From NCBI GenBank assembly GCA_021166725.1, contig JAJPES010000063.1:43330-107329 (forward strand): a DNA stretch of 64,000 nt, written 5' to 3'. Both the position numbers and the translations under genes were made by a program. Numbering within the stretch: the first letter of the stretch is position 1; each line of letters opens with the position of its first letter. The notes under the pieces are model-generated. The model was given only the letters and a program-made list of their open reading frames with translations, was not told the DNA's origin and did not search any database. Positions 1-29,275 of the stretch are shown piece by piece. Origin of the DNA: Burkholderiaceae bacterium (GTDB taxonomy: Bacteria; Pseudomonadota; Gammaproteobacteria; Burkholderiales; Burkholderiaceae_E).

Positions 1-107
1 GAACGCCGTACGAGCGGCGCGCCGCGCAGCATCCGCTGCATCGATGCGATCGACGCTTCGAGGTCGTCGACGACGATGCCGATGTGATCGATGCGGGGAA
101 GCGTCAT
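1..107 (-). CDS. VOC/glyoxalase family protein, N-terminal fragment (methylmalonyl-CoA epimerase-like), truncated by window edge
   Basis: Reverse complement reads MTLPRIDHIGIVVDDLEASIASMQRMLRGAPLVRR; the IDHIGIVVDDLE N-terminus is typical of VOC/epimerase proteins; ATGA overlap with the hyuB stop at 104. Confidence 0.6.
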   Translation of the reverse strand, partial: MTLPRIDHIGIVVDDLEASIASMQRMLRGAPLVRR

Positions 108-1873
108 CGGGCGTTGCGCAACCGGGCGGTCGCCGCTTCGTCGAGCGCGCCGTTCACCGGATCGACGGCGACGCCGTAGTCGGCATACGCGGCCTCGGCG
201 CTGATCAAGCCGTCGAGCACGTCGTCTACCACCTTTTGCGCCGGACGCTCGCGCGGATCTCCGTATCCGCCGCCGCCTCCGGCGTGCTGGCGGTACACCG
301 ATCCGCGCGCAATGTCGCGCAGGATCTCCTTGGACTTCGGGCGCCGGAGCGTGCCGTCGGGCTGCACGATCTCCAGCGTGTTCACGCTGCCGGGGCGTCC
401 GCCGAACAGACCGAAGGCGCGCGCCCGCTCGTCGATGCCGTCGCCGAACGCGATGCCGGTGACGTCTTCGCCTTCGATGACGAACTCGGTTTCGACGCCG
501 AGCCCGCCGCGCCAGCAGCCGGCGCCCGCCGAGTCGGTGGCGTACTCGTGGCGCAGCAATCGGTGCGGATCGTGTACCTCGAACATCTCGTAGTCCTGCG
601 CGAGGATGCCGCCGGCGCAGTTGATGAGTCCGATGTGATCGTAGCCGTCGGCGCCGAAGGTCGCGCCCGAGCCGCCCTTCAATGCGAGGAACAGGATGTC
701 CACGTAGGGGCGGTCGCGACGCGGATCGCGACCGGTGATCGTGAAGCCCATCATCCGGTTCCAGCCTGCCGTCACCATCTTCGGCAGCGCCTGCGCGAAT
801 GCGCGGAAGATCGCATCGGAAGTCGGGCCGGTGATCGAGTTGCCGAAGGTCGTCGCGGCCGGGAAGCGGGCGTTGAGGAACGAGCCTTCCGGGTTCACGA
901 TGCGGATCGGCCGCAGGATGCCGGCGTTGTGCGGCACCTGCGGGTCGATCAGCATCAGGAAGGTGAGCAGCAGCGCCGAGGCTGTTGCCGAGTACGGGGC
1001 GTTGACGAAACCGGGCGTCTGCGGCGACGAACCGCTGAAGTCGAACACGATCTCGTCGCCGGCCACGCGCACCGTGAGCGCGATGCGCATCTTCGAGCCG
1101 TCGCGCACGCCGTCGTAGAACGCCCAGCTTTCGCCCGTGTATTCGCCGTCGGGAATCGCGGCGATCTCATGGCGCACCATCCGTTCGGAAGCGGCGAACA
1201 GGTAGTCGATGCACGCATCGAAGCCTGCTTCATCGAAGCGCTCGCACAACTCGTGCATCGCACGCTCGCCGATGCGGGTGGCGCCGATCTGCGCCTTGAT
1301 GTCCTCCTCGACGATCGGATAGCGAATGTTCGCGAAGACCATCCGCCAGACGTCGCGACGCAGCTTTCCGCGCTCGATCACCTTCAGCGGCGGGATGCGG
1401 AATGCCTCCTGCCAGACCTCGCGCGCCTCGGGGTTGTAGCCGCCCGCCTGCGCGCCGCCGATGTCGGCCTGGTGCCCCTTGCACGCGGCCCATGCGTAGA
1501 GCCTGCCGTTGCGGAAGATCGGCCGGAATACCGCCACGTCGTTGTTCTGGTTGCCGCCGGAGAAGACGTCGTTGTGCAGGATCACGTCGCCTTCGTGGAT
1601 GTCGTCGCCGAAATGCGCGATGACCTGCTCGCACGCGGGCTGCAGCGCGAAGGCGAGCACCGGGATGTATTCGGTCTGCTCGAGCATGCGTCCCTGGGCG
1701 TCGTACAGTCCGGTGACGAAGTCGCGCGCCTCGTTGAGGATCGGCGAACGCGTCGTGCGCAGCAGCGTCAGTCCCATTTCCTCGGTGATCGACTTCAGCC
1801 GGCGGTGCAGCACCGATGCCTGGATCGAGTCGACGTTTCCGACGTTGCCGTTCATCGCTGCGTTTCTGTCCAT
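104..1873 (-). CDS. HyuB-type subunit (N-methylhydantoinase B / oxoprolinase / acetone carboxylase alpha family), copy 1
   Basis: Translation MDRNAAMNGNVGNVDSIQASVLHRRLKSITEEMGLTLLRTTRSPILNEARDFVTGLYD...GGGGYGDPRERP is typical of HyuB; homologous to the copy at 30.4 kb. Confidence 0.92.
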   Translation of the reverse strand: MDRNAAMNGNVGNVDSIQASVLHRRLKSITEEMGLTLLRTTRSPILNEARDFVTGLYDAQGRMLEQTEYIPVLAFALQPACEQVIAHFGDDIHEGDVILHNDVFSGGNQNNDVAVFRPIFRNGRLYAWAACKGHQADIGGAQAGGYNPEAREVWQEAFRIPPLKVIERGKLRRDVWRMVFANIRYPIVEEDIKAQIGATRIGERAMHELCERFDEAGFDACIDYLFAASERMVRHEIAAIPDGEYTGESWAFYDGVRDGSKMRIALTVRVAGDEIVFDFSGSSPQTPGFVNAPYSATASALLLTFLMLIDPQVPHNAGILRPIRIVNPEGSFLNARFPAATTFGNSITGPTSDAIFRAFAQALPKMVTAGWNRMMGFTITGRDPRRDRPYVDILFLALKGGSGATFGADGYDHIGLINCAGGILAQDYEMFEVHDPHRLLRHEYATDSAGAGCWRGGLGVETEFVIEGEDVTGIAFGDGIDERARAFGLFGGRPGSVNTLEIVQPDGTLRRPKSKEILRDIARGSVYRQHAGGGGGYGDPRERPAQKVVDDVLDGLISAEAAYADYGVAVDPVNGALDEAATARLRNAR

Positions 1874-3957
1874 AGTCCGACAGCCTCCTGGAGGTCTTCG
1901 AGGAGGAATCCGCCGAGAGGGTCGACTTCGAGCTGGAAGCCGCGGGGCACGAAGAGCGTCGTCGTGCGCTTCTCGACGATCGCCGGGCCGTCGATGCGGT
2001 TGCCGCAGCGAAGATGCTCGCCGTCGTATACGGGCGTGTCGGCGAAAGCATCCGCTTCGGGCTGCCAGACCGTGCGCCTTCCCTTCAGCGCGTGCTCCGC
2101 GTTCGGGTCGCTGCGTGCCTCGCGCTGCTGCGGCGGCTTGTCGGTCTCGCCGATCGCCGCCACGCGCAGGCTGATCAGTTCGACCGGGGTGGCTTCCTCG
2201 CGCAGCGCGTAGCCATAGAGCCGGTCGTGGCGATCGTGGAAGGCTTCGCGCACCGCTGCCCAGTGGCCCCCGCGGACCGTGTCGAGCCCGGTCTCGACCG
2301 AAACCTCGTGGTACTGGCCCAGGTAGCGCAGGTCCAGCGAGAGCACGAAGCGGCGACGTTCCGCGGCGACGCCTTCGGCGGCGAGCGCCGACGATGCCTC
2401 GTCGAGCATCGCGTCGACGAGCGCGACGAGCGGCGCCGGATCGGTGCCGTCGGCGAGCGTCAGCGCGAGGCTGCGCACGAAGTCGTGCTTCAGGTCGCTG
2501 CGCAGCATTCCCGAGGCGCAGAAGATCGATGCCTCGCGCGGCACCAGCACGCGTGCGATGCCCAGTTCGCGCGCGATCATCGCGGCGTGGATCGCCCCGG
2601 CACCCCCTGCGCAGACGAGCGGAAACTCGCGCGGATCTACGCCCTTCTGCACGGAGATCTCGCGGATCGCCGATGCCATGTTCACGTTCATCACGTGGTA
2701 CATGCCCGCTGCGGCGCGTGTCGCATCCATCGCGAGCGGTTGCGCGATCTCGCGTTCGATCGCTTCGCGCGCTGCGCCGGCGTCGAGTCGAAGGCGGCCG
2801 CCGGCGAAGAAGTCCGCGGACAGGTAGCCGAGCAGCAGGTTCGCGTCGCTGCACGTGGCTTGCGTGCCTCCACGCCCGTAGCAAGCCGGCCCGGGATCGG
2901 CTCCGGCGCTCGCCGGACCCATGCGCAGCAGGCCGTGGTCGATCCACCCGATCGAGCCGCCGCCCGCGCCGATCGTCGCGATGTCCATCGACGGCAGCGC
3001 GAGCGCGAAGCGGTTCACCGTCGCGGAGTTGGTGATCGAAGGTGCGCCTTCGATCACCAGCGCGGCATCGAAACTCGTGCCGCCCATGTCGACCGTGATG
3101 AATCGGTCGCTGCGGTGCGGCTCGATCGCGGCAAGCCCGGCAGTGGGGGCGGCGGCCGGACCCGACAGCAGGGTCGAGGCGGCCAGTTCGGCGACGGCCT
3201 GCGCCGAAGTCACGCCTCCGTTGGACTGCATCACGCGAAGCACGCCGGCAAATCCCGCGTCGGCGAGCCGGCGCCGGAGGTTGTCCAGGTAGCGGCGCAG
3301 GATCGGCCCGACCGCCGCATTGAGCACCGTCGTGCTCGTGCGCTCGTAATAGCGCAGCTGCGGAAGCACGCGGGCGGAAACCGACAGGTAGGCCGAGGGC
3401 AGGCGCTGCGCGACGAGGCGGGCGGCGGCCTCTTCGTGTTCCTGGTTCGCGTAGGCGTGCAGGAAGCAGATCGCCACCGCTTCGACCCGCTGTGCGGCGA
3501 AGTGTTCGATGGCGCGCTCCACGTCGTCGAGCGACAGCGGTTCGATCTCGCTGCCGTCTACGGCGATCCGCCCGCGCACGGGCAGGCGCAGGCGGCGCGG
3601 CACGAGCGGCGCCGGCGCGGCGAACTTGTTGTCGTAGAACGCTTCGCGCACGCCGCGCCGCATCTGCAGCGCATCGCGGAACCCCCAGGTGGTCAACAGG
3701 CCCGTCTTCGCGGTGCGCCCGGTAAGCACGGCGTTCGTCGTCACCGTCGTTCCGTGCACGACGAGGTCGACCTGGCCGAGGAAGCCGTCGAGCCGTTGTT
3801 CCTCGGCTTCGGCGAGCTCCGCGAGTCCCTGCACCACTGCACGCGACGGGTCGTCCGGAGTGGACAGGACCTTGTGTGCGCGTGTCTTGCCGTTCGCGTC
3901 GAGGAACAGGTAATCGGTGAAGGTGCCGCCGACGTCGATGCCGATCCGATAGCCCAT
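1852..3957 (-). CDS. HyuA-type subunit (N-methylhydantoinase A / oxoprolinase / acetone carboxylase beta family), copy 1
   Basis: MGYRIGIDVGGTFTDYLFLDANGKTRAHKVLSTPDDPSRAV...HGTTVTTNAVL: DVGGTFTD ATPase motif; start re-assigned to 3957. Confidence 0.92.
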   Translation of the reverse strand: MGYRIGIDVGGTFTDYLFLDANGKTRAHKVLSTPDDPSRAVVQGLAELAEAEEQRLDGFLGQVDLVVHGTTVTTNAVLTGRTAKTGLLTTWGFRDALQMRRGVREAFYDNKFAAPAPLVPRRLRLPVRGRIAVDGSEIEPLSLDDVERAIEHFAAQRVEAVAICFLHAYANQEHEEAAARLVAQRLPSAYLSVSARVLPQLRYYERTSTTVLNAAVGPILRRYLDNLRRRLADAGFAGVLRVMQSNGGVTSAQAVAELAASTLLSGPAAAPTAGLAAIEPHRSDRFITVDMGGTSFDAALVIEGAPSITNSATVNRFALALPSMDIATIGAGGGSIGWIDHGLLRMGPASAGADPGPACYGRGGTQATCSDANLLLGYLSADFFAGGRLRLDAGAAREAIEREIAQPLAMDATRAAAGMYHVMNVNMASAIREISVQKGVDPREFPLVCAGGAGAIHAAMIARELGIARVLVPREASIFCASGMLRSDLKHDFVRSLALTLADGTDPAPLVALVDAMLDEASSALAAEGVAAERRRFVLSLDLRYLGQYHEVSVETGLDTVRGGHWAAVREAFHDRHDRLYGYALREEATPVELISLRVAAIGETDKPPQQREARSDPNAEHALKGRRTVWQPEADAFADTPVYDGEHLRCGNRIDGPAIVEKRTTTLFVPRGFQLEVDPLGGFLLEDLQEAVGLWTETQR

Positions 3958-3984: not shown

Positions 3985-4014
3985 GATGGTACTGAAACTG
4001 ACGATTTGGTACCA
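3985..4014. promoter_or_regulatory. Putative TetR operator: GATGGTACT-N11-TTTGGTACCA
   Basis: Lies in the divergent hyuA1/tetR intergenic region; same bipartite motif with the same 11-nt spacer recurs at 21887-21916. Confidence 0.6.
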
Positions 4015-4054
4015 GTCCTTCTTTTTGCGATGCCTCGCCGCTATCCTGCGTGCC

Positions 4055-4639
4055 GTGCCCGATTCGCGCCGCGCTCGCCCGACCACGCCGAGGCAGGAGC
4101 TATTGCTCGATGCCCTCGAGAACCTGTTCCTCGACGAGGGATTCCGCGAGGTCACGGTCGCCGCGCTCGCGAAACGCCTGCGCTGCTCGCGTCGAAGCTT
4201 CTACGAACTGGCTCCGAGCAAGGAAGCATTGTTCCTGCGCGTGTTCGATCGCTACCTGAAGCGCTTGCGCGAGGCGGGACGACATGGCGCGCACGGCCTG
4301 CCGGCGCAGGAGGCGATCGTCGCCTACCTCGCTCCCGCGCTCGACGCAGCGCGCAAGCTTTCGACGCGCCTGATGGGCGATGTGCAGTCGTACCCGCCGG
4401 CGCGCGCGCTGTGGGAACGGCATACACGCGAGCGGATGACCGGACTGCAGGTGCTCATCGACGACTGCGTGCGGACCAACGTGTTTCGCGGCGTCGATCC
4501 GTACCTCGTGGCCGAGGTGATGAGCGCGTCGCTGCGCCGCATCGGCGAGCCGGATTTCCTGACGAAGGCGGGACTCAGCTATCGCGACGCCGTGCAGGAG
4601 TTGTACGGCCTGCTGCTGCGTGGACTGCAGGCGCGCTGA
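4055..4639 (+). CDS. TetR/AcrR family transcriptional regulator (GTG start proposed)
   Basis: PRQELLLDALENLFLDEGFREVTVAALAKRLRCSRRSFYELAPSKEALFLRVF: TetR HTH; divergent from hyuA1. Confidence 0.88.
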   Translation: MPDSRRARPTTPRQELLLDALENLFLDEGFREVTVAALAKRLRCSRRSFYELAPSKEALFLRVFDRYLKRLREAGRHGAHGLPAQEAIVAYLAPALDAARKLSTRLMGDVQSYPPARALWERHTRERMTGLQVLIDDCVRTNVFRGVDPYLVAEVMSASLRRIGEPDFLTKAGLSYRDAVQELYGLLLRGLQAR

Positions 4640-9741: not shown

Positions 9742-10787
9742 TCGTCCTCTCCGGTGGCGCGCGACGTGAGCGAGCGCCACAGCAGCACCGGGATGATGAC
9801 CGTGAAGACGATCACCTCCTTGTAGGCGGACGCCCAGAACGACGAGAACGATTCGAGCAGCCCGACCAGCAGCGCTCCGGCGGCCGCCAGCGGATAGCTC
9901 GCCAGGCCTCCGACGATCGCCGCGACGAAGCCCTTCAGGCCGAACAGGAAGCCGGTGTCGTAGTAGATCGTCGTGATCGGTGCGACCAGCACCCCGGAGA
10001 GCGCGCCGATCAGCGCCGCGAGGGCGAACGAGAGCTTGCCGGCGAGTACGGTGGAGATGCCCATCAGCCGCGCTCCCGCGCGGTTGATCGCCGTGGCGCG
10101 CAGCGCCTTGCCATAGAGCGTGCGCTCGAAGAACAGATAGAGCACCGCGATCAGCGCCAGAGAGGCGCCGATCACCCACAACGTCTGCCCGTTCACGCCG
10201 ATCGGACCGAGTTCGAAGCGTGCGTCCGAGAACGACGGCGTGCGCGTGCCCTCGGCGCCGAAGAAGAGCAGTCCGAGGCCGACCAGCGCGAGATGCACGG
10301 CGACAGCGACGATCAGCAACACGAGCACCGAAGCATGCGCGATCGGCTGGAACGCCAGCCGATAGATCATCGGACCGAGCGGGACGATCAGTGCGAGCGC
10401 GAGCGCCACCTGCAGCGGGAGCGCGAGCCGGGCGGGGTCGAAGGCGTAGAGCACGAGCGCCGCGAGTGCCGGATACGCGAGGTTCCAGCCGACGATCGAC
10501 GCGATGCGCGCGTGCGCAGCGCCTTCGCGTGCACGCCGCCAGGCCATCACGCCGTCGACGATCGCCACCGCCACGCCGGCGCCGATCAGCAGCCATAGCG
10601 TGCCGGGCGTGCGGCCCGCCTGGAAGCTCGCCAGCGTGAGCGCGCCCATCGAGACGAACTCGCCCTGCGGAATGTAGATGACGCGCGTGACCGCGAACAG
10701 CAGGACGAGCGCGAGCGCGAGCAGCGCGTAGATCGCGCCGTTGGTGATACCGTCCTGCGACAGCAGCAGTGCGATCTGCAGGTTCAT
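9738..10787 (-). CDS. LivH-type ABC transporter permease, copy 1
   Basis: [53 protein letters not shown] overlap with the livMG fusion. Confidence 0.92.
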
Positions 10788-10813
10788 GCGGCGACGATCC
10801 AAAGGAGCATGCG

Positions 10814-11758
10814 ATGAAGGCGGTGCGTGTTCACGCGTGGGGCGCAGCGCCGGTGGTGGAAACCGTGCCGGCGCCGATCGAGCGCGAAGGTCGCAGCATC
10901 GTGCGCATCGAGGCGGCAAGCGTCGGACACCTCGATCGCACGATCTGGCGCGGTGAGTTTCTTCGCCCGCCGATGCTGCCGTACGTGCCCGGCATCGAGG
11001 GCAGCGGCGTCGTCGAGCAGGGTGCAGCGCTCCCGGCCGGCACGCGCGTGTGGTTTCGCGGCGGCGGCCTCGGCACGCAGGAGGACGGCACCTGGCGGGA
11101 ACGCTGCCCGGTGCCCGACACGATCCTCTCGCCGTTGCCCGACAGCGTGTCCTTCGATGCGGGCGCGAGCTTCTTCTCGCCGTGCACGTCGGCGTGGGTT
11201 GCGCTGCACGACGTGGGGGCGCTGCGCGCGGGCGATCGCGTGCTCGTCAGCGGCGCCAGCGGCGCCGTCGGCAGCGTCGCCTGCCAGCTCGCGCTGGGCG
11301 CCGGTGCGCGCGTCTTCGGCGCGGTGGGCAGCGCCGAGCGCATCGCGCAACTGGCGAAGGGCGTCGAACCGATCGTGGTCGAGCGGGTCGCGCCGCGCAC
11401 GCCGAACGACGTGCAGGCCGATCTGCTGATCGACACGGTGGGCGGCCCGATGCTCGCCGCACTGCTGCCCGTTGTCGCGGCCGGCGGGCGCGCGGTGCTC
11501 GTCGGCTATCTCGGCGGTGCGCAACTCTCGCTCGATCTCACGCGGTTCATCCAGCGCGATGTGTCCTTGCTGCCGTTGAACATGCTGCGTCGCGAAGCGG
11601 CGGGGCGTGCCGCGGCACCCGGGTTGCTCGCTCGCATCGCGGAGGGGTCGTTGCGCGTCGAGCGCCGTTGCTTCGACTTCGCCGATGCGGCGAAGGCGCT
11701 CGAATGGCTCGAGCGTCCCGATCACCGCGGACGCGCCGTGCTGCAATGGCACCGTTGA
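10814..11758 (+). CDS. Zinc-type alcohol dehydrogenase / NADPH:quinone oxidoreductase family
   Basis: [23 protein letters not shown]...[15 protein letters not shown]...[30 protein letters not shown] superfamily. Confidence 0.88.
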
Positions 11759-11791: not shown

Positions 11792-12769
11792 TCAGCGCGC
11801 ACCGGCCGGTGGCGAGGCGATCGTTGCGATGATCCGCCCGTACTTCTCGATGTCGCGCCGCACCAGCGCTTCGAGTTCGGCCGGCGTGCCGCTCGTCGGT
11901 TCGAGCCCGGCGGCTTCGAGTCGCTCGATGACCTGCGGCTCCTTCAGCGCGATGCCGATCTCCCGGTTCAGCCGCTCGACGACTGCCGGCGGTGTCCCGG
12001 CCGGTGCGAGGATCGCGTACCAGTTGACGAGCGCGAACTCCGGGTAGCCGCTTTCGGCGATCGTCGGCACGTCGGGAGCGATCGGCGAGCGTTTCGGACT
12101 CGTCACCGCCAGCGCGACGAGCTTGCCGGCCTGCGCGTGGCGGATTCCATTGCCGGCGACGATGAACGACAGGTCGATCTGGCCGCCGAGGTTGTCGGCG
12201 AGCGCCTGGCCGCCGCCTTTGTACGGAACATCGACGACATCGATGCCGGCCAGCCGCTGGAACCACTGGAATCCGAGGTAGTGCGGGCTCGTCGTGCCCA
12301 GCGACGCGAAGGTGAGCTTCCCCGGCCGTGCCTTCGCCGCGGCAACGAGTTCGCCGATCGAGTGCGCGCCGAGCGCCGGATGCGCGACGAGCATCAGCGG
12401 CGACGTCGTCAGTTGAGAGACGAACGCGAAGTCCTTCACGGAGTCGTAGGGCATCGGCTGCCCCGACACCGCGTTGATCGCGTGGATGTCGGTGGTCAGC
12501 AGCAATGTGTAGCCGTCGGGCTGCGCGCGCGCCACCGTCTGCGTGGCGATCACCGAATTGCCTCCGGGCCGGTTCTCGACGACCACCGTCTGCCCGAGCG
12601 CCGGCGTCAAGCGCTCCGCGAGGATCCGCGCCGCCGTATCGGTGCCGCCACCCGGGCCGAAGGGGACGACGATGCGGACCGGATGCGCCGGCCACGTTTC
12701 GGCCGCGGCAGCGCCTGCGCCCAGCGCCGGGGCGAGCAATGCCAGAGCGAGCGCGAGGAGTCGTTTCAT
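11792..12769 (-). CDS. Bug/TctC family tripartite tricarboxylate transporter substrate-binding protein
   Basis: Signal peptide, then WPAHPVRIVVPFGPGGGTDTAARILAERL...VVENRPGGNSVIATQTVARA: Bug family signature. Confidence 0.93.
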   Translation of the reverse strand: MKRLLALALALLAPALGAGAAAAETWPAHPVRIVVPFGPGGGTDTAARILAERLTPALGQTVVVENRPGGNSVIATQTVARAQPDGYTLLLTTDIHAINAVSGQPMPYDSVKDFAFVSQLTTSPLMLVAHPALGAHSIGELVAAAKARPGKLTFASLGTTSPHYLGFQWFQRLAGIDVVDVPYKGGGQALADNLGGQIDLSFIVAGNGIRHAQAGKLVALAVTSPKRSPIAPDVPTIAESGYPEFALVNWYAILAPAGTPPAVVERLNREIGIALKEPQVIERLEAAGLEPTSGTPAELEALVRRDIEKYGRIIATIASPPAGAR

Positions 12770-12813: not shown

Positions 12814-14829
12814 TCAGCCCGTGCGTCCGAAGTCGGGACTGCGCCGTTCGCCGAACGCCGCGATGCCCTCCCGAGCCGCAGCGGTGCACGCGCTCGCGCC
12901 GAACGACGCATAGCCGACCTCGAGCGCCTGCGCGAGCGTGGGCGCAGCCGCCGCCTCCCGCACCGCCTTCTCGATCAGGCCGATCGTGGTGGCGCTCAGC
13001 ACCGTTCCGTTGGATGCGCGTTCGACGCGCTCGCCGAAACCGGGCACCTCGACCGCGCCTTCGGTGATCCTCGGCATGCGCTGCGCCAGCGCATGCACGC
13101 GCTCCACCGCGCAGCCGATCAGTTCGCGATAGTCGGCGGCGAGCGCATCGACGATGCCCAGTTCGTGCGCCCGTTCGGCGCCGAGCCGCTCGCCCTTGCG
13201 CAGCATCGCGTGGAAGACCTCGGCGGCTCGCGGCCAGCGCCGATAGGGCACGACCATCGCGCCGATGCCCGGAACGATGCCGAGCGTGACTTCGGGCAAC
13301 TGCATCGACGCGCCGCGCACCGCGACGAGCGCGTGGCAGCGCATCGCCAGTTCGAAGCCGCCGCCCAGCGCCATTCCGTTCAGCGCCGCCACCACCGGCT
13401 TGCGCATCGCATCGAGGTGCACGAGCAGCCGCGAGCAATCGCGCGCGTACTGCGCGGCGGCCCGGGCGTCGCCGAGCATCGACGGGAAGCGACCGATGTC
13501 GGCGCCGGCGCAGAACGCGCGCGTGCCGTAGCCGACGACGACGAAGCCGGCGACGGCCGGATCGTCCTCGTGGCGGCGGATCACGTCGAGGATCTCGTCG
13601 GTCATCTCGTCGTGCAGCGCATTCAGCGCCTCGGGGCGGCGCAGCGTGATCACCTTCACGTCGGCCACGTCATCGACCAGCACGTGGCGTTCGAATCGCT
13701 GGTATTCGCCGAGCGCGCGCCGCGGCTGCGGCATGCCGGGCCGCTCGGCGACGAAGCGTTCGAGCACGCGCGCGCCTTCGGCCTCGCCCAGGCTGCGCAT
13801 CAGCGCGAGCGGACCCTCGCGAAAGCCGAGCGCGATCCGGCAGCCGAGATCGAGATCGGCGGGTTCGCCGATGCCGCGATCGAGGATGTCGACCGACTGC
13901 GAGAACAGCACGCCGAGCAGGCGGTCGCGCACCGCTGCCGCGGTTTCGGCCTCCACCGGCACCGACTTGCCCGGCGCGACGGTGAGCCAGCGCTCGACCG
14001 AGCCGAAGATCGACGCCGGACGATAGTGCTCGCCTTCCTCGTCGGCCTGCAGCGTGTTCGTCTCGACGATGATCGGATTGCCGTGCGCGAGGTTCAGCAC
14101 GAAGAACGGACCCGCGTGCACGTAGTCGGACGCCACCGTGTCGACCTGCGCGGCGCTCGCCCGATCGAGCAGCAGCGCCGATTCGTTGCACCAGTTGTCG
14201 AAGATGCGATCGAGCATGAAGCAGGGTGCATCGGCCGTGACCAGCGGCAGTTTTCCGGTCTCGCAAAAGAAGCGGCGCAGGTGCTCGACGAGGCCGGCGT
14301 CGACGCGCTCCCAGTCGATCACCTCGACCGCCGGGTTGCGCCAGGCCGGCGCGAAGAAGTGCGTGACGGTGGCACGGCGCGGATTGCGCAGCTCCGAGAA
14401 GATGCGCGCCGCGGGCAGGGAACTCGTATTCGACGTGATGATCGCATCGTCGGCGACGCGCTTTTCGACGTCGGCGAAGATGCGTCGCTTCAACGCGAGA
14501 TTCTCGGTGGCGGCCTCGAGCACCCAGTCGCACCCGGCGATCGCGTCGTAGTCGGTCGTGCCGTGCACGTCGCGCAACACGCCCTCGGCTTCCTGCGCTT
14601 TCATCTTGCCGCGCGCGACGGCCTTGTCCGCGTAGCCGCGAAAGCGCGCGAGCGCCGCGTCCAGCGCGGGCTGCGCGAGGTCGACGAGCGTGAGCTTCAG
14701 CGTGGGCAGCGCGCTTTTCAGGTAGTAGCCGATATCCGGCCCGATCGAACCGGCGCCGATGATTCCGACGTGCCGCGGCATCGCGCGCGCGGGTTCGGCC
14801 AACAGCGGGTTCGCGAATCGATGCGTCAT
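12814..14829 (-). CDS. 3-hydroxyacyl-CoA dehydrogenase (N-terminal)-enoyl-CoA hydratase (C-terminal) fusion
   Basis: N-term [34 protein letters not shown] (Rossmann), C-term [26 protein letters not shown]...[10 protein letters not shown]...[15 protein letters not shown] (crotonase). Confidence 0.9.
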
Positions 14830-15581
14830 GCGTGGATTTCCTTGCCTTCGTTCGTGCGCTTGGCGAGCCCGAGATACGACTCGACGACGCGCGGGTTTCC
14901 GCTCAACTCGGCCGAGGTTCCGGCGAGCGCGATGTCGCCGGTCTCGAGAACGTAGCCGTGATCGGCGACCTGCAGCGCCGCGCGTGCGTTCTGCTCGACG
15001 AGCAGGATCGAGACGCCGGTCTTTCGCAGGTCGGCGACGATATGCATGATCTCGCGCACGATGCGCGGGGCCAGGCCCAGGCTCGGCTCGTCCAGCATCA
15101 GCAGCCGCGGCTTGCCCATCAGCGCGCGGCCCAGCGCGAGCATCTGCCGTTCGCCGCCCGAGAGCGTCGCGGCGAGCTGCGTGCGCCGCTCGTGCAGTCG
15201 CGGAAAGCGCGCGTAGACCTCGCCGAAATCGGAGTCGGCGCCGCGCTCGCCGTTACGCACGCGCTGGAAGGCGCCCAGGCGCAGGTTGTCCTCCACCGAC
15301 ATCTCGCCGAACAGTTCGCGGCGTTCGGGCACCAGGCACACGCCGCGCGCCACACGGGCTTCGATCTCGGTGCTTCCGAGATCGTTTCCGGCGTAGCGCA
15401 CGCGGCCGGTGGAAGGCAACAGGCCCATGATCGCGCCGAGCAGCGTGGACTTGCCCGCGCCGTTCGGCCCGATGACGGTGACGATCGATCCTTCGTCGAC
15501 GCGCAGCGAGACGCCGTGCAGCGCTTCGACCTTTCCGTAGCACACTCTAAGCGCGTCGACTTCGAGCAGCGGCGCGGTCAC
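14826..15581 (-). CDS. LivF-type ABC transporter ATP-binding protein (GTG start)
   Basis: [53 protein letters not shown]...[33 protein letters not shown]. Confidence 0.92.
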
Positions 15582-17413
15582 TCGATTCCTCCCAGGTATG
15601 CCTCGAGCACGGCAGCGTCGGACTGGATCGCCTGCGGCGCGCCTTCGGCCAGCTTCTCGCCGAAATCCATCACGACGAGCCGGTCGACGAGGCCCATCAC
15701 GAAATCCATGTCGTGTTCGACGAGCAGCACGCTGATGCGCTCGTCGCGCAGCCGGCGCAGCAGCGCGGCCAGCGCCTGCTTCTCGGCGAAGCGCAGACCG
15801 GCTGCCGGCTCGTCGAGCAGCAGCAGGATCGGGTCGGCCGCCAGCGCGCGCGCGATCTCCACGATGCGCTGCTGGCCGAGCGCGAGACTGCCGGCCGGTT
15901 CGTGCAGGTGTTCGCCCAGTCCGACGCGTTGCAGCTGGCGTGCCGCTTCGGCGAGCAGCCGCTCGTCCTCGACGCGTTCGGCGTGCGCCATCGCGGCGAG
16001 CGTGCCGCTGCGTCCGCGCAGGTGCGCGCCGATCGCGACGTTTTCGAGCACCGACATCGACGAGACGAGGTTCACGTGCTGGAAGGTGCGCGCGACGCCA
16101 CGCCGTGCGATTCCGCGCTGTCCGAGCGTGTCGATGCGTTCGCCGAGGAAGCGGATCCGGCCGCTCTCCGGCTGCAGCACGCCGGTGATCAGGTTGAACA
16201 TCGTCGTCTTGCCGGCCCCGTTCGGCCCGATCAGCCCGAGGATCTCGCCGCTGCGCAGCTCGAACGACATGCGGTTGACGGCGACGAGTCCGCCGAAGCG
16301 GATGCGCACCGCATCGAGCTCGAGCAGCGGCTCGCCGCGGGTCGGCTGCTCGCGACGCGGTAGCGGCGCGGCCTGCAGCGAAGGAGTACGGCGCTTCGGC
16401 GCCGGCAGCAGGCGGGCGAGCGCAGGTGCGATACCGTTGCGCGTGCGCTGCAGCAGCACGAGCATCAGCACGCCGAACACGACGATCTCGTAGTTGCCGG
16501 TCCGCTGGATGGCCGCGGGAAGCAGGTCCTTGAGCCACTCGCGCAGCATCGTCAGCACCGAGGAGCCGATCACGGCGCCCCAGACGTGGCTGGCGCCGCC
16601 GATCACCGCCATGAACAGGTAGTCGATGCCGGCGTTCACGCCGAAGGCGTGCGGGCTGACGAAGCGCAGGAAATGCGCGTGCAGCCAGCCCGACACTCCG
16701 GCGAGCAGCGCGGCATACAGGAAAATCAGCACTTTCAGGCGTGCGGTATCGACGCCGAAGCTCTCGGCCATGACGCCGCGAAAGCGCAGCGCACGCAGGG
16801 CACGCCCGGTGCGCGAGTCGAGCAGGTTCGTCGCCGCCACCAGTGCGGCGATCGTCACCGTCCAGATCAGGTAGTAGATGCGCGGCGCGGTGTCGAGCGG
16901 CCAGCCGGCCAGCGTGATCGGCGGCAGGTCGTCGATGCCGCTGTACGCGCCCAGTCCGGGCAGGTTGCCGAACACGTAGTAGAGGGCGATGCCCCAGGCG
17001 ATCGTCGCGATCGACAGGCAGTGTCCGGACAGGCGCAGCGTGATCGCGCCCAGCACGAGCCCGAAGACGCCGACCAGCGCCAGCGCCGCCGGGAGTGCGA
17101 TCCACGGAGACAGCCCGGCGGTGGTGGTCATCACTGCCGTCGTGTAGGCGGCAATGCCGACGAAGGCCTGCTGGCCGAAGGAGACGATGCCGGCAATGCC
17201 GGTGAGCAGCACCAGTCCGAGCGCGACCAGCGTCGCCAGGCCGATGTAGTTGAGCAGCGTGACGTAGAAGGCCGGAACGACGAGCGGCGCGAGCGCGACG
17301 GCGATCGCGAATGCGACGAAGGGCCAGTGAGCGAGCCACTGCGCGAGCCACAGCGCGAGCCCCTGCGTGGACCACTGCGCGGACCACCCGGCCGACCGGC
17401 GCGCGCGCGTCAT
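15578..17413 (-). CDS. LivM permease-LivG ATPase fusion protein, copy 2
   Basis: Same architecture as copy 1: [44 protein letters not shown] followed by [25 protein letters not shown]. Confidence 0.92.
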
Positions 17414-18453
17414 TCCTCCTCGTCCTCCACGTGGTGGCGCGAGGTGAGCGAGCGCCAGACGAGCACCGGGATGATGATCGTGAAGACGATGCTCTCCTTC
17501 AGCGCGCTCGCCCAGAACGACGAGAAGGATTCGAGCAGGCCTATGCCCAGCGCGCCGAGCGCCGCCAGCGGATAGCTCGTCATGCCGCCGAGGATCGCGC
17601 CGACGAAGCCCTTGAGGCCGATCATCAACCCGGTGTCGTAGTAGATCGTCGTGATCGGCGCGATCAGGACGCCCGACACGGCACCGATGAACGCCGCCAG
17701 CAGGAAGCTGAGGCTGCCGGACATCTCGGTGCGCACGCCGACCAGGCGCGCGCCGATGCGGTTGATCGCGGTGGCGCGCAGCGCCTTGCCGTACAGCGTG
17801 CGCTCGAAGAACAGCCACAGCGCGGCCATCACGACCAGGCTCGCGACGACGACGACCAGGCTCTGTGCGCTCACGTTCAGCGGCCCGGCTTCGAAGCTCG
17901 CATCGGAGAACGCGTTCGCGCGCAGGCCCTCGCCGCCGAAGAACACGAGCCCCAGGCCGGTGAGCACGTAGTGCGCGGCCATCGAGACGACGAACAGCAC
18001 GATGACCGAAGCGCTCGCCAGAGGCTGGTACGCGACGCGATACAGGATCGGCCCGAGCGGCACCACGAGCCCGACAACGACGAGCGACTGCAGCCACGGA
18101 TCGAGATTGCGCGGCGCAGCCCACCAGGCGACGGCCGACATCGCGATCGGCACGACGATGTAGATCGCGACGACGCGCGGCAGCCGATGCAGCGCGCGCT
18201 CGCGCCACGCCTTCACTGTGTCGAAGCCCGCTGCCAGCAGCCCGCCGCCGACCAGCACCCAGACCGTTCCCGGCACCTTCCCCAGCTGCAACATCCCCAT
18301 CGACAGCGCCGCATAGGAGATGAATTCGCCCTGCGGCACGAAGATCACCCGCGTAACGGCGAACACCAGCAGCAGCGCCAGCGCAAGCAGCGCATAGATG
18401 GCACCGTTGGTGATGCCGTCCTGCGTGAGCCATAGCGCTATGTCGAAGGTCAC
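17410..18453 (-). CDS. LivH-type ABC transporter permease, copy 2 (GTG start proposed)
   Basis: [51 protein letters not shown]; paralogue of 9738-10787. Confidence 0.9.
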
Positions 18454-18578
18454 GTGAAGGGTGAAGGGTGAAGGGTGAAGGGTGAAGGGCAACCGAGCGG
18501 GCGGTGAGTTGTCGCGCGTCAGGGAGGGTTGAAGGTCGAGGGCGGTGGCCCCTTCACCCTTCACCCTTGACCCTTCAC
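18454..18578. repeat. Heptamer tandem repeat (GTGAAGG)x5 with an inverted counterpart (CCTTCAC)x4, one copy CCTTGAC
   Basis: Left arm 18454-18488 = five exact GTGAAGG units; right arm 18551-18578 = four CCTTCAC-type units; arms are reverse complements separated by about 62 nt. Confidence 0.9.
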
Positions 18579-19723
18579 TGCTTCATCAGCTTCCACTCCC
18601 CGTTCTTCACTTCCACGAGCACGCGCGCGCGCTCGTCGAGGCCGTTGTGGTTCGTCGAGCTCAGGTTGTAGACGCCGTGCGTGCCGACGACGTCGTGCAC
18701 GTGCTCGAGCGCGTCGCGCAGTGCGGCGCGGAACTCGGGCGTGCCGGGCCTGGCTTTCTTCAACGCTTCGGGGACGGCGGCGTTCAGCAGCAGCGTCGCG
18801 TCGTAGCTGTAGCCGGCGAAGGCGTTGCGCGTCTCGGGACCGAAGGCGGCTTCGTAGCGCTTGGTGAAATCGAGCGACACCGCCTTGGTCGGGTACGAAT
18901 CGGGCAGCTCCTCGGGGACGATCAGCGCGCCGGTGGGCGCGATCGCCCCTTCGACGGCCTTCTTGCCGTTCTGGATGAACGCCAGGTTCACCGTGCCGTG
19001 GTTGTGATAGATCGGGCCCTTGTAGCCGCGCTCGCGCAGCGCGATGTGCGGAGTGGCTGCCGGCGAACCCGAACCGCCGACGACGACCGCGTCGGGTTTG
19101 GCGGCGATCACCTTGAGCACCTGGCCGGTGACGCTGGTGTCGGCCCGGCCGTAGCGCTCGTTGGTGACGACCTTCATCCCCGCTTCGGGCGCGAGCTTCT
19201 GCATCGCGTTGTAGACGAGGTCGCCCCAGGTGTCGGAGAAGCCGATGTAGCCGATCGTCCTGATGCCCTTCTTCTTCATGTCGTCGACGACCGCGCTCAT
19301 CATCAGCTCGGTCGTCTGCGGCACGACGAAGCTCCAGTGGGCACGATCGCCGTCCAGCGGCGGGATCGGCGTGAGCGCGATCATCGGCGTCTTCGTTTCG
19401 GCCGCCACCTGCGTCATCGCGACCGCCGACGGAACGCCGTTCGACCCCATGATCGCGTCTACCTTGTCTTCGGTGACGAACTTGCGCGCGTTCTTCGCCG
19501 CGTTGTCGGGCTTCGATTCGTCGTCGAGGATGATGTAGGTGACGGGTTCGCCGCCGATCGTCTTGGGGATCAGCTGGAAGGCGTTCTTGTACGGAATGCC
19601 CAGCGACGAGCCGGGGCCGGTGGTGCCGAGCGATACTCCGATGCGGATCTCGGCGTTGGCGGCCGGGGCGGCGAGCGCGGCCGCGGCCGCGAGCGCGAGG
19701 GCTTGCAGGATGCTGCGTTTCAT
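18575..19723 (-). CDS. Branched-chain amino acid-type ABC transporter substrate-binding protein (LivK-like), copy 2
   Basis: Signal peptide MKRSILQALALAAAAALAAPAANA, then EIRIGVSLGTTGPGSSLGIPYKNAFQLIPKTIGGEPVTYIILDDE; paralogue of 6651-7802. Confidence 0.92.
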   Translation of the reverse strand: MKRSILQALALAAAAALAAPAANAEIRIGVSLGTTGPGSSLGIPYKNAFQLIPKTIGGEPVTYIILDDESKPDNAAKNARKFVTEDKVDAIMGSNGVPSAVAMTQVAAETKTPMIALTPIPPLDGDRAHWSFVVPQTTELMMSAVVDDMKKKGIRTIGYIGFSDTWGDLVYNAMQKLAPEAGMKVVTNERYGRADTSVTGQVLKVIAAKPDAVVVGGSGSPAATPHIALRERGYKGPIYHNHGTVNLAFIQNGKKAVEGAIAPTGALIVPEELPDSYPTKAVSLDFTKRYEAAFGPETRNAFAGYSYDATLLLNAAVPEALKKARPGTPEFRAALRDALEHVHDVVGTHGVYNLSSTNHNGLDERARVLVEVKNGEWKLMKQ

Positions 19724-20754
19724 GAGGCTCCTCCAGTGGACGTCGGTCGATCGAATTCGTCCGTGGCCGGTGCGCGCAGCAGCCCCATGTGCGAGAGCAT
19801 GCCGAGCAACCGCCCGAGTGTTTCGGAACGGTATCGCGCGAGGTCGACGCCGTCGAAATCGTGGAAACCCTTGCCGTCGCGCAGGCCGTTGCGCCCTTCG
19901 CGCATGTGCCGATCGACGATCGGCGGCGACGCATAGCGTTCGTCGCCCAGCGCCTGCGCCAGGTAGCGGCTCGCGTAGTACAGGATGTCGTTGCCGCCGT
20001 AGTCGATGAACTCGACGACACCCATGTTGGCGAAGCGAAAGCCCAGGCCGTAGCGCGTCGCGCGGTCGATCTCCTCGGCGCTCGCCACGCCCTGCTCGAT
20101 CATCCGCGCGGCCTCGTTCATGACCAGCGACTGGAGCCGCGGCACGATGTATCCCGGCGCGGCCTTGCAGTGCACCGGCACCTTGCCGATCGATTCGAGC
20201 AGCGCGTGCAGCGAGCGCAGCGCCTGCGGCGCAGTGTTCTGGTGCGCACTCAACTCGACCAGCGGGATCACGTGTGCGGGATTGAGCCAGTGCGCGTTGA
20301 GGAAGCGCTCGGGCCGTTCGACGAAGTCGGCCAGTTGCGTGACGAGGAAGGTCGAGGTCGTCGATGCGACGATCGCGTCGGCGCGGGCATGCGCGCCGAC
20401 GAAGCCGAGCGCTTCGCGCTTGGCGTCGAGCACTTCGGGCACGCCTTCGAAGACGAAGTCGGCATCGGCAAGCGCCTCGACCGCTTCGTCGCGTGCGGCG
20501 AAGCGCACTCGCCGCAACACCCGCGGGCGCAGCGAATCGTCGAAGGCGCCCCACGCCGACATCGCGGCAAGCGAAGCGTCGATCTCGGCGAACGCGTCCC
20601 GGCGCAGCGCCTCGGTGGCCGTGCTTTCGCGCGGCTTGAGGTCGACGAGCTGCACCTCGTGTCCTGCGTAGGCGAATGCGGTGGCGATGCCGCGTCCCAT
20701 GCGTCCCGCGCCCAGGGCTGCCACGCGGCTGCGGCGCGACGGGGCGACGTTCAT
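19720..20754 (-). CDS. 3-hydroxyacyl-CoA dehydrogenase family protein
   Basis: RVAALGAGRMGRGIATAFAYAGHEVQLVDLKPR...NAHWLNPAHVIPLVELS...PGYIVPRLQSLVMNEA. Confidence 0.88.
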   Translation of the reverse strand: MNVAPSRRSRVAALGAGRMGRGIATAFAYAGHEVQLVDLKPRESTATEALRRDAFAEIDASLAAMSAWGAFDDSLRPRVLRRVRFAARDEAVEALADADFVFEGVPEVLDAKREALGFVGAHARADAIVASTTSTFLVTQLADFVERPERFLNAHWLNPAHVIPLVELSAHQNTAPQALRSLHALLESIGKVPVHCKAAPGYIVPRLQSLVMNEAARMIEQGVASAEEIDRATRYGLGFRFANMGVVEFIDYGGNDILYYASRYLAQALGDERYASPPIVDRHMREGRNGLRDGKGFHDFDGVDLARYRSETLGRLLGMLSHMGLLRAPATDEFDRPTSTGGAS

Positions 20755-21830
20755 GCGGCGTTGCCGTTGCTCAGCAGTTCGCGCATCGATGGCCTGTCGA
20801 GCGACGCGAGTCCGAGCGCGGCGAGCGTGCGCGGGCCGCGATCGAGCGGCTCGCCGACCAGCGCCGAGGCGATCGACAGCAATCCGCGCGCGACCGGGCA
20901 GGCGACGCCCGCCCAATCGGCGACGGAGACGAGGAACGCGAGCCCGTAGGCGACGTCCTCGAGCATGTAGCGGTGGCTGCGCAGGTCGATGTGTTCGCGC
21001 CAGTCGCCGCTGTCGACGAGCTTGTCGTGCGCGTTGCCGTACATCCAGCGGTCGTTCTCGTAGTGGTCGGACAGCGGGAAATGCGGCGCGGCGTAGCCGA
21101 GCGCCTCGCGCAGCGCGATGCGTTCGCCGTCGAGCGCGTCGGTGACACGCCGGATCGCCGGCTGCGTGCCTTCGGCGTGGATGTCCCAGCGCTCGAAATG
21201 CTCGAGCGGACCTGCGTTCATCAGGATCAGCGGCGGGTGGATGACGGGGCCCGCGTTCATCAGCGCCGCCGACAACGCGTCCTCGACGGCCTCGATCGCC
21301 GGATACGCGCGCGCGATCGTGGCCAGTGCCTGTTCGCTGTCGGCGGCCGGGTAGACGCCGGTGGGCAGGCGCGTCGCGCGCGTCGTGATGGCGACTTCGG
21401 TCGGGCCGTGCTTGCGGGCGAGGTAGGGCAGCGTTCCGGTCTCGGCGAACGAAACGCGCGCGTGGCTGCCGGCGTCGCGAACGGCCTGCGCCATCGCGAA
21501 CGAGCCGAAGGTTCCGGGGGGCAGGTAGACGACCTGGCCGTCGCGCAGATGCGGGCCGACCGCGCGTGCGATGTCGGCCTGCGCGAAGGCCGGGCAGGGT
21601 GCAAGCACCAGTTCGGCGCCGCGCAGCGCTTCGCCTGCATCGGGCGTCGCGCATTCGATCCGCACGTCGCGTCGCCCGGCGTGATCGACCAGCGTGATGC
21701 GTGGCGACTCGATCAGCGGCGCCAACGCGCGCACGTCGCGGCGCCACAGCCGCACTTCGTGTCCCTGCTCGGCGAGATCGGCGGCGGCGGCGTGACTGCC
21801 GTTCCCGCCGCCCAGGACGGCGATGCGCAT
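20751..21830 (-). CDS. NAD/NADP octopine/nopaline dehydrogenase family protein
   Basis: MRIAVLGGGNGSHAAAADLAEQGHEVRLWRRD...; C-terminal PLSDHYENDRWMYGNAHDKLVDSGDWREHIDLRSHRYMLEDVAYGL matches the octopine DH domain. Confidence 0.8.
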   Translation of the reverse strand: MRIAVLGGGNGSHAAAADLAEQGHEVRLWRRDVRALAPLIESPRITLVDHAGRRDVRIECATPDAGEALRGAELVLAPCPAFAQADIARAVGPHLRDGQVVYLPPGTFGSFAMAQAVRDAGSHARVSFAETGTLPYLARKHGPTEVAITTRATRLPTGVYPAADSEQALATIARAYPAIEAVEDALSAALMNAGPVIHPPLILMNAGPLEHFERWDIHAEGTQPAIRRVTDALDGERIALREALGYAAPHFPLSDHYENDRWMYGNAHDKLVDSGDWREHIDLRSHRYMLEDVAYGLAFLVSVADWAGVACPVARGLLSIASALVGEPLDRGPRTLAALGLASLDRPSMRELLSNGNAA

Positions 21831-21886
21831 CAGTGCAAGCCTCGGCAATTCCGCCGTGCTGCAAGCACGACGGGCAGGTTTCGGCG

Positions 21887-21916
21887 GATGGTACTAGACG
21901 AGAGTGTTTGGTACCA
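21887..21916. promoter_or_regulatory. Second copy of the putative TetR operator: GATGGTACT-N11-TTTGGTACCA
   Basis: Same half-sites and 11-nt spacing as 3985-4014; 57-86 nt upstream of the 21830 start of the dehydrogenase/transporter operon. Confidence 0.6.
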
Positions 21917-21960: not shown

Positions 21961-23148
21961 TTACGCGGCCACGCCCTCGGCAACGAACGCTTCGATCTGC
22001 CCGCCGTCGTAGCCGGCCTCGGCGAGCACGCGGCGCGTGTCGGCGCCGTACTTCGGCGGGAACGGCAACTCGGTGCGTGCGCCCTCGATGTCGACCGCCA
22101 TCGGCTGCATGCGGATCGTTCGGCCGTCGGGCATCGTCGTGTGCGTCAGCCGATCGCGCAGTGCCGGCAGTTCGCGCACCTGCCGGATGTCGAGGATGCG
22201 CGTCGCCGGGATCTTCGCGTCCTGCAGGTCGGCGAGAATCTGCTCGACGGGGTGCTGCGCGGTGACCGACGCCATGTCGCGATGGATCGCCTCGCGCTCG
22301 CGGTGACGTCCCTCGTTCGTCGCGCGCACTTCGTTGGCCAGTGACGCGAACTTCGGAATCGCGGTCAGCCGGCGCCACTGCACGTCGCTGCCGATGGCGA
22401 GGTAGACGAAGCCGTCGCGTGCCGGATAGACGTTGGTCGGGATGAACTTGCGGTGCTCGTTGCCGGCGCGGGTGATCTCGTTGGGCGCGCAGTCGAAGTC
22501 GACCAGCGGCAGCACGGTGGTGAGCCACGAGGCCGCCGCCTGCAGCATCGAGACGTGGATCTCCGAGCCATGGCCGGTCTCGTGGCGTTCGAGCAGGGCG
22601 CGCATCACGTTCGCGTAGACCTCGTCGCCCGCCTTCAGGTCGATGACCGGTATGCCGGAGAGCATCGGCGGACCGTTCGGGTCGCCGGTGACCTCCATGT
22701 AGCCGGCCATCGCCTGCAGCACCGGATCGTAGCCCGGCGCTTCGGGGAAACGCGGGCCCATCGCCGAGATGCCGGCCCAGATCAGGTCGGGCTTCGCCGC
22801 GCGCAGCGTCGCCGGGTCGATGCCGAGCGACGCGTAGCGCGACGGGACCGTGTTGCAGCAGAAGACATCCACGTCGAGTTCGTGCAGCAACCGGCGCACG
22901 ATCTCGTGCGCGCGCGCGTCCTTCAGGTTCAGTGCGATCGCTTCCTTGCCGACGTTCGGCGCGATGAAATAGCTGCGCCTGTCGTCGTCGGCCACGCGCG
23001 AGCCGATGTAGCGGTTCGGATCACCCGGCAAGCCCCCGCCGCCGACCGACTCGATGCGGATGACTCGCCAGCCCAGTTGCGCGAAGCGCAGCGTCGCGTG
23101 CGGCAGCGACAGCGCCTGTTCCATCGAGAGGACGGTTCGACGCTTCAT
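21961..23148 (-). CDS. CaiB/BaiF family CoA transferase (family III)
   Basis: [58 protein letters not shown]...[34 protein letters not shown]. Confidence 0.92.
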
Positions 23149-27230: not shown

Positions 27231-28844
27231 TCAGAACCGGATCGGTTCACGGTAGCGCCCGAACACCTGGACCATCTCGCGCGTGATCTCGCCGACGCTG
27301 GCGTAGGCCTTCACCGCCTCGACGATCGCCGGCATCAGGTTCACGCCCGATCGCGCGTCGGCGTTCACGCGGGCCAGCGCGTTCGCCACCTTCGTTTCGT
27401 CGCGCTCGGCGCGCACCTGGTTCAGCGCCTCGACCTGCCGTCGCGCGTCTTCTTCCTTGTACGGATGGAATTCGACCGGATGGTCTTCCTCCTTCTCGTT
27501 GCGGTAGCAGTTCACGCCGACCTTCGGGAACGCACCCGACTCGATGTCGCGCTGCATCCGGTACGCCTGCTCGGAGACCTTCGACTGGATCGTGCCGTCG
27601 GCGATCAGCTTCACGATGCCGCCTTGCGCATCGACGTCGGCGATGATCTCCTTCATCAGGTCGCGCATCCGGTTCGTCATCGTCTCGATGTAGAACGAGC
27701 CGCCCAGCGGATCGACCGTTTCGGTGAGCCCCATCTCCTCGATGAGGATCTGCATCGTGCGCAGCGAGATGCGCGCCGAATATTCGGTGGGGATCGTGTA
27801 GGCCTCGTCGTACGAGCACAGCGCCATCGTCTGCGCGCCCGACAGCGCGCTGATCAGCGCGTAGTAGGCACCGCGCACGATGTTCATCTCGGGCTGCTCG
27901 AAGGTGAGCCCGCCGCCGCCGCCGCCGGCGATCATGCGCAGCCACATCGAGCCTGGCTTCTGCGCGTCGTATTCCTCCTTCATGATCTGCGCCCACAGGC
28001 TGCGGCCGGCGCGGAACTTGCAGATCTGCTCGAAGAGGTTGCCGAAGATGTTGAAGTTGTACGACAGGCGTCCCGCGAACTCGTCGACGGCCAGGCCGCG
28101 GCGGATCACGTCGTCGGCGTAGGCGCGCGCGATGCAGAACGCGTAGGCCATCTCCTGCGCCGGCGTCGCGCCCGATTCGCGGATGTGGTAGCCGCACACC
28201 GACACCGGGCTGTATTTCGGCGCGTGCTTCGCGCAGTACTCGATCGTGTCGCCGACCAGCCGGATCGACGGTTCCACCGGATAGATCCAGGTGCCGCGGC
28301 CGACGAACTCCTTCAGGATGTCGTTCTGGCAGGTGCCGCGCAGTTTCGCGACGTCGTAGCCGCGCTTCTCGGCCATCGCCAGGTACATCGCGATCAGGAT
28401 CGCCGCCGCGCCGTTGATCGTCAGCGACACGGTGATCTTGCTGAGATCGATGCCGTCGAAGGCGATCTCGACGTCGCGCAGCGTGTCGATCGACATGCCG
28501 ACGCGACCGACTTCGCCTTCGGCCATCGGGTCGTCGGAATCGAGACCGATCTGGGTGGGCAGGTCGAAGGCGACGTTCAGCCCGGTCTGGCCGTTGGCGA
28601 TCAGGTACTTGAAGCGCTGGTTCGTCTCGTGCGGATTGCCGAAGCCCGCGTACTGGCGCATCGTCCACGGCTGCTTGCGGTACATCAGCGGGTGGATGCC
28701 GCGCGTGAACGGATACTCGCCCGGCTGGCCGAGCATCGCCAGCCCGCCGCTGTCGTCGACGTCGGCCGCCGTGTACAGCGGCTGCACTTCCAGGCCCGAT
28801 TCGTTGAGAACGGGCTTCGCTTCGATCGGGGCGCGATCGTTCAT
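27231..28844 (-). CDS. Methylmalonyl-CoA mutase-family acyl-CoA mutase, large (catalytic) subunit
   Basis: YPFTRGIHPLMYRKQPWTMRQYAGFGNPHETNQRFKYLIANGQTGLNVAFDLPTQIGLDSDDP...TVDPLGGSFYIETMTN; no B12 domain in this ORF. Confidence 0.93.
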   Translation of the reverse strand: MNDRAPIEAKPVLNESGLEVQPLYTAADVDDSGGLAMLGQPGEYPFTRGIHPLMYRKQPWTMRQYAGFGNPHETNQRFKYLIANGQTGLNVAFDLPTQIGLDSDDPMAEGEVGRVGMSIDTLRDVEIAFDGIDLSKITVSLTINGAAAILIAMYLAMAEKRGYDVAKLRGTCQNDILKEFVGRGTWIYPVEPSIRLVGDTIEYCAKHAPKYSPVSVCGYHIRESGATPAQEMAYAFCIARAYADDVIRRGLAVDEFAGRLSYNFNIFGNLFEQICKFRAGRSLWAQIMKEEYDAQKPGSMWLRMIAGGGGGGLTFEQPEMNIVRGAYYALISALSGAQTMALCSYDEAYTIPTEYSARISLRTMQILIEEMGLTETVDPLGGSFYIETMTNRMRDLMKEIIADVDAQGGIVKLIADGTIQSKVSEQAYRMQRDIESGAFPKVGVNCYRNEKEEDHPVEFHPYKEEDARRQVEALNQVRAERDETKVANALARVNADARSGVNLMPAIVEAVKAYASVGEITREMVQVFGRYREPIRF

Positions 28845-29275
28845 CGCACGTTCTCCCGGATGTAGTCGCAGATCGCGTCGAGCTTCGAGCCGGTGGGGAA
28901 GATGCCGGTGAAGCCGAGCGCGCGCAGTTCGTCGTGGTCCTGCGCCGGCAGGTTGCCGCCGATCACCCACAGCTTGTCGGTCAGGCCTTCGGCCTCGAGC
29001 AGCGTCTTCAGCTTGCGGCAGAACGGCAGGTGCGAGCCGGCCAGGCTGGACAGCGCGATCACGTCGACGTCCTCGTCGAGCGACATGCGCGCGACCTGCT
29101 CGGGCGACTGGCGCAGCCCGGTGTAGATGACCTCGAAGCCGGCGTCCATCATCGCGCGCGCGACGACCTTGGCGCCCTGGTCGTGCCCGTCCAGGCCGGG
29201 CTTGGCGAGCAGCACGCGGATGCGGCGCGTGTCCGCCGGCGCGGCTGCTCCGGCAGCAACGGTGCTCGTGCTCAT
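28841..29275 (-). CDS. Cobalamin-binding small subunit of acyl-CoA mutase
   Basis: RIRVLLAKPGLDGHDQGAKVVARAMMDAGFEVIYTGLRQSPEQVA...SSLAGSHLPFCRKL: DxHxxG B12-binding motif. Confidence 0.95.
   Translation of the reverse strand: MSTSTVAAGAAAPADTRRIRVLLAKPGLDGHDQGAKVVARAMMDAGFEVIYTGLRQSPEQVARMSLDEDVDVIALSSLAGSHLPFCRKLKTLLEAEGLTDKLWVIGGNLPAQDHDELRALGFTGIFPTGSKLDAICDYIRENVR

Follow-up and report, generated by a model that had tools for sequence, protein, structure and literature searches.

Two identically armed palindromes as predicted operators of a lineage-specific, two-operon TetR regulon in a Burkholderiaceae bacterium

We analyzed a 64,000-nucleotide stretch of DNA from a Burkholderiaceae bacterium, referred to here as the window (Table 1). 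The genes hyuA1 (start 3957, minus strand) and tetR (start around 4055, plus strand) diverge from an intergenic region that holds the first of two palindromes, operator 1, and the hyuA1-hyuB1 operon runs on to the left of the window with genes for a PaaK-like CoA ligase and an SDR. The second palindrome, operator 2, lies in a 130-bp gap between two minus-strand genes, encoding a CaiB-type CoA-transferase and an octopine-type dehydrogenase (OctDH) whose best PDB match is N-(1-D-carboxylethyl)-L-norvaline dehydrogenase. As the CaiB gene is co-directional and upstream, operator 2 implies an internal promoter within a long gene train. A plus-strand gene for a zinc-type alcohol dehydrogenase (window 10769-11758) sits amid this otherwise minus-strand train. 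The presumed OctDH leader contains a hairpin (window 21851-21873; core CGTGC-N5-GCACG), the outer pairs of which are changed yet still pairing in the relatives G010 and G012, in a comparison of three sequences only with z values of -0.6 to -1.6. The window also encodes a two-subunit B12-dependent mutase (27231-29320), with 2-hydroxyisobutyryl-CoA mutase as its best solved relative, in the neighborhood of an acyl-CoA dehydrogenase, a molybdenum hydroxylase, and a second HyuA.

Table 1. Features of the window bearing on the two putative operators
Feature	Position	Strand	Remarks
hyuB1	104..1855	-	Hydantoinase B/oxoprolinase
hyuA1, first target gene	1852..3957	-	Hydantoinase/oxoprolinase A; caprolactamase-alpha-like, below that model's cut-off
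Operator 1	3987..4014	.	TGGTACTGAAACTGACGATTTGGTACCA; between divergent tetR and hyuA1; kept beside tetR/hyuA1 in relatives
tetR, predicted regulator	4055..4639	+	194 aa, GTG start; Pfam TetR_N, E 2e-10
TctC-type substrate-binding protein	11792..12700	-	Last gene of presumed operon
FadJ-like 3HCDH + enoyl-CoA hydratase fusion	12814..14829	-	Orthologue within G011 hyuA1 operon
Liv permeases + ATPases	14826..18564	-	Two permease domains, two ABC ATPase domains
LivK2 substrate-binding protein	18575..19657	-	Start approximate
3-Hydroxyacyl-CoA dehydrogenase (3HCDH)	19720..20745	-	Start approximate
Octopine/nopaline-type dehydrogenase (OctDH)	20751..21830	-	First gene behind operator 2; Pfam Octopine_DH
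Operator 2	21889..21916	.	TGGTACTAGACGAGAGTGTTTGGTACCA; CaiB-OctDH intergenic gap; also only in G010, G012
CaiB-type CoA-transferase	21961..23148	-	Co-directional, upstream of operator 2

The tetR product carries an N-terminal helix-turn-helix TetR_N domain (PF00440; 40.7 bits against a cut-off of 24). Its AlphaFold model is all-helical, with ten helices and a pLDDT of 85.5, in keeping with the family's fold of an HTH joined to a ligand-binding domain, and the PDB fold matches listed for it are TetR-type regulators. In a profile search of solved structures, the best match was PfmR of Thermus thermophilus (PDB 3vpr; E 3.4e-13), which has the same TetR fold at about 21% identity in the fold match. 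The recognition-helix residues C44, S45, R47, and Y50 are invariant across 14 homologues, with identities down to 33%. TetR proteins are usually, but not always, repressors. The sequence TATCCT is located seven bases 5' of the tetR GTG (window 4042-4055) and also occurs in G010, G012, and G004b; a leaderless transcript is possible.

The initial annotation had described one identical bipartite operator in front of two operons, and the exact motif GATGGTACT-N11-TTTGGTACCA is indeed found at 3985-4014 and 21887-21916, with identical arms, whereas the 11-nt spacers are alike in length only. After alignment of the relatives, the conserved unit is a 28-bp palindrome, TGGTACY-N14-RGTACCA, and the leading GA ahead of it is kept only on the target-gene side. 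GGTAC/GTACC is unchanged in 21 of 21 sites, and the 14-bp centre drifts. The palindromic pattern has two matches in the window, against zero expected from dinucleotide shuffles of the window. In a scan of the genome (3,566,393 bases [3.57 Mb], approximately 89% complete), the two window copies were the only exact sites of the 30-bp motif, and allowing up to three mismatches added a single three-mismatch chance match on another contig; the base composition gives a chance expectation of about 4e-5 exact sites per genome. A literature search on the half-site string was uninformative, returning apparently mostly primer matches.

The pairing of this palindrome with the adjacent regulator was followed across the family. 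TetR orthologues in genus mates are 57 to 94% identical, and a profile search identified an orthologue in 13 of 74 genomes. The site is present in all 13, adjoining tetR (within about 200 bp) in 12 and located at hyuA1 alone in G002. In 12 of the 13, the site at tetR or hyuA1 conforms to YGGTACY-N14-RGTACCR; in the remaining genome, G073, the site next to tetR reads TGGTACC...GGTACCC and departs from the pattern by one end base, and an exact but unrelated match lies elsewhere. Among the 61 orthologue-free genomes, the pattern occurs in one (G018, with two chance matches). This degenerate pattern is not rare by itself, since 0.23 chance matches are expected per genome of this size from base composition, and it is therefore the association and the positions that carry the evidence for pairing. 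With only pattern-exact orthologue sites counted as positive (G073 thus scored negative), Fisher's exact test on 12/1 versus 1/60 gives a p of about 8e-12, a value that is descriptive only, the genomes being related. In G002, tetR and hyuA1 are on different contigs, the operator is still in front of hyuA1, and no GTAC was found within several hundred bases upstream of tetR; the operator thus belongs with the target gene rather than being merely a tetR promoter element. HyuA1 orthologues of at least 70% identity occur in exactly the ten genomes with a hyuA1-type operator, leaving aside one G016 copy truncated by the end of its contig. A second operator on G004 contig 252 (L056 4772-4799) is flanked by a TctC gene and, at the end of the contig, a truncated paralogue of tetR, and it adjoins a second hyuB-PaaK-SDR set. 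Both window palindromes are almost certainly docking sites of the one adjacent TetR, as predicted from this co-occurrence.

Operator 2 has a narrower distribution. The CaiB-OctDH-LivK order is kept in G016, G014, G006, G002, G004, and G073, where roughly 70 to 100 bp separate the CaiB and OctDH genes, and the operator is absent at this junction in all six. Only in G000, G010, and G012 does the gap widen, to about 130 to 137 bp, and contain the operator. Both clusters are on one contig in G000 and G012; in G010 the contigs break within LivK2, with a matching gene order. As the other genomes are without an operator there, a gain in the G000/G010/G012 lineage is the simpler reading, and control of the OctDH operon by operator 2 rests on three closely related species. 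This confinement, together with the lack of a consensus promoter at operator 2, would also suit a scenario in which TetR genuinely acts at operator 1 alone and operator 2, lacking a promoter, is either a remnant in decay or a neutral copy. We consider that scenario improbable: the arms of operator 2 are intact in the three species while the spacer changes and the adjacent protein is 89 to 92% identical, and both operators share the same orientation, with an ATC extension toward the target gene. We also considered whether operator 2 is a direct copy of operator 1 with its flanks and found no support for this origin, as the spacers match at 2 to 4 of 12 positions and the flanks are inconsistent; the upstream flank in G000 aligns above chance (reached by 5 of 500 shuffles), which is not repeated in G012 or G010.

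The palindrome also extends beyond these genomes. It is found in a Ramlibacter-labelled MAG, and in a different family G413 and G387 each have two operator units between tetR and an AMP-ligase gene, one of these units being a perfect 28-bp palindrome. The operator is absent in G378, which has a more distant TetR relative and marks the predicted edge of the operator-bearing TetR subfamily. The genome analyzed here contains at least one further TetR-like gene, and the palindrome could in principle be the site of a different regulator, either a global factor or another TetR, that co-occurs by chance. This is very unlikely given that, both within the family and in another one, the palindrome comes and goes with this TetR subfamily and that the site is missing from genomes whose only TetR-like genes are not orthologues. 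It is comparison across genomes, then, that identifies the predicted pairing of operator and TetR, the putative target genes, and the lineage-specific second site. The proposal that one local TetR controls both hyuA1-hyuB1 and the 21.8- to 11.8-kb operon is very probably correct, supported by the genome scan and the co-occurrence in the family. Both sites were flagged by a terminator scan, but an intrinsic terminator, with either 28-bp unit as its stem and a T-rich tail, is scarcely credible and was rejected, as the relatives hold GGTACC arms generally without the T-rich tail or inner stem pairing and a terminator does not belong in a region from which two promoters diverge.

In three distant sites (G078, G079, and G079b), the target-side half-site GGTACC lies inside the spacer of a TTGACR/T-N17-TCTAAT promoter, the spacing having been read by eye. 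RNA polymerase would be kept off by any protein occupying this position, and repression by occlusion is therefore the best candidate mechanism. At the window sites, we found no sigma-70 consensus promoter at either site and, by eye, no sigma-54 consensus, so we infer an occluded promoter from the distant members. In the hyuA1 group, where no consensus promoter was found, the base next to the operator is T on the target side in 13 of 14 sites and mostly G on the opposite side, an asymmetry that would fit a -10-like TACCAT at the operator's end. TGGTAC and TACCAT are exactly 17 bp apart, and it is conceivable, though rather doubtful, that the 28-bp element is itself a self-contained repressible promoter. 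If so, one gained element could bring both an internal promoter and TetR control to the CaiB-OctDH gap, and an existing operon would have been recruited into the regulon once the two clusters became neighbors.

The half-sites had been proposed to form an inverted repeat suited to a TetR dimer; the inverted repeat stands, but a single dimer does not fit, the half-site centres being 20 bp (about 68 A) apart. Recognition helices of a TetR dimer are 31 to 38 A apart, and dimer-of-dimers operators measure 22 to 32 bp, compared with 15 to 17 bp for single-dimer TetRs (PMC4150764). Because the spacing exceeds the reach of one dimer, and with a conserved unit of 28 bp that falls within the dimer-of-dimers range, two TetR dimers per operator are likely. 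The dimer-of-dimers regulators QacR and CprB have operators of 28 and 22 bp, respectively (PMC4150764); the operator described here is similarly long but differs in half-site sequence, and its dimer number is drawn from length and spacing alone.

We infer binding itself, repression, the two-dimer stoichiometry, and the inducer, and consider it highly probable that the two copies are operators of the TetR encoded at 4055-4639, that it represses both operons until released by a metabolite, and that operator 2 was gained within the lineage. Each 28-bp palindrome would most likely take up two TetR dimers, and TetR would occupy the hyuA1 promoter and its own divergent promoter, as well as the internal promoter between CaiB and OctDH, blocking RNA polymerase. 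Both operons would be turned on when a metabolite of the pathway frees TetR, the likeliest candidate being a CoA thioester from the co-regulated ligases. Operator 2 would have been gained in the lineage where both gene clusters came to one locus.

A comparable arrangement is known from MbdR of Azoarcus sp. CIB, a TetR repressor of 3-methylbenzoate degradation with 3-methylbenzoyl-CoA as inducer, whose 18-bp palindrome (ATAC-N10-GTAT) recurs at multiple promoters within a single catabolic cluster, among them its own and an operon-internal one (PA), and overlaps the -10/-35 regions (PMC4424350). Similarly, a local TetR-type regulator is predicted from sequence here to have its palindrome at more than one promoter within a cluster, again including an internal one. 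However, the operator core, GGTACY-N14-RGTACC, does not match ATAC-N10-GTAT, and MbdR was not named among the solved-structure matches of the TetR profile search. As the operators differ, MbdR is a lead rather than a claim of membership. Ligase genes adjoin every operator-bearing tetR examined; combined with the MbdR precedent, our guess would be a CoA-ester inducer. The likeness of the nearby mutase to 2-hydroxyisobutyryl-CoA mutase is a hint, and only that, to the substrate.

Both operons had been assigned to one pathway. In this lineage they are likely co-regulated, but a strict single pathway is not established, as the six relatives keep the second cluster operator-free; in G014, the second cluster is present without tetR and without hyuA1, which counts against it. 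The hyuA1 operon of G011 holds orthologues of the FadJ-like protein (69%) and of an acyl-CoA dehydrogenase (75%), circumstantially linking parts of the two gene sets.

That a local TetR regulator governs a lineage-specific regulon of two operons is thus a well-supported prediction. A TetR regulator with a small regulon is of an already known kind and represents fairly ordinary bacterial gene regulation. A motif seen by eye has nevertheless become a testable small regulon, and an uncharacterised TetR subfamily that occurs in at least two Burkholderiales families now has a defined operator. One gene junction with and without the operator offers a natural comparison for the recruitment of an operon to a local regulator, and the function of the uncharacterised HyuAB, octopine-dehydrogenase-like, and Liv genes is narrowed to co-regulated catabolism.
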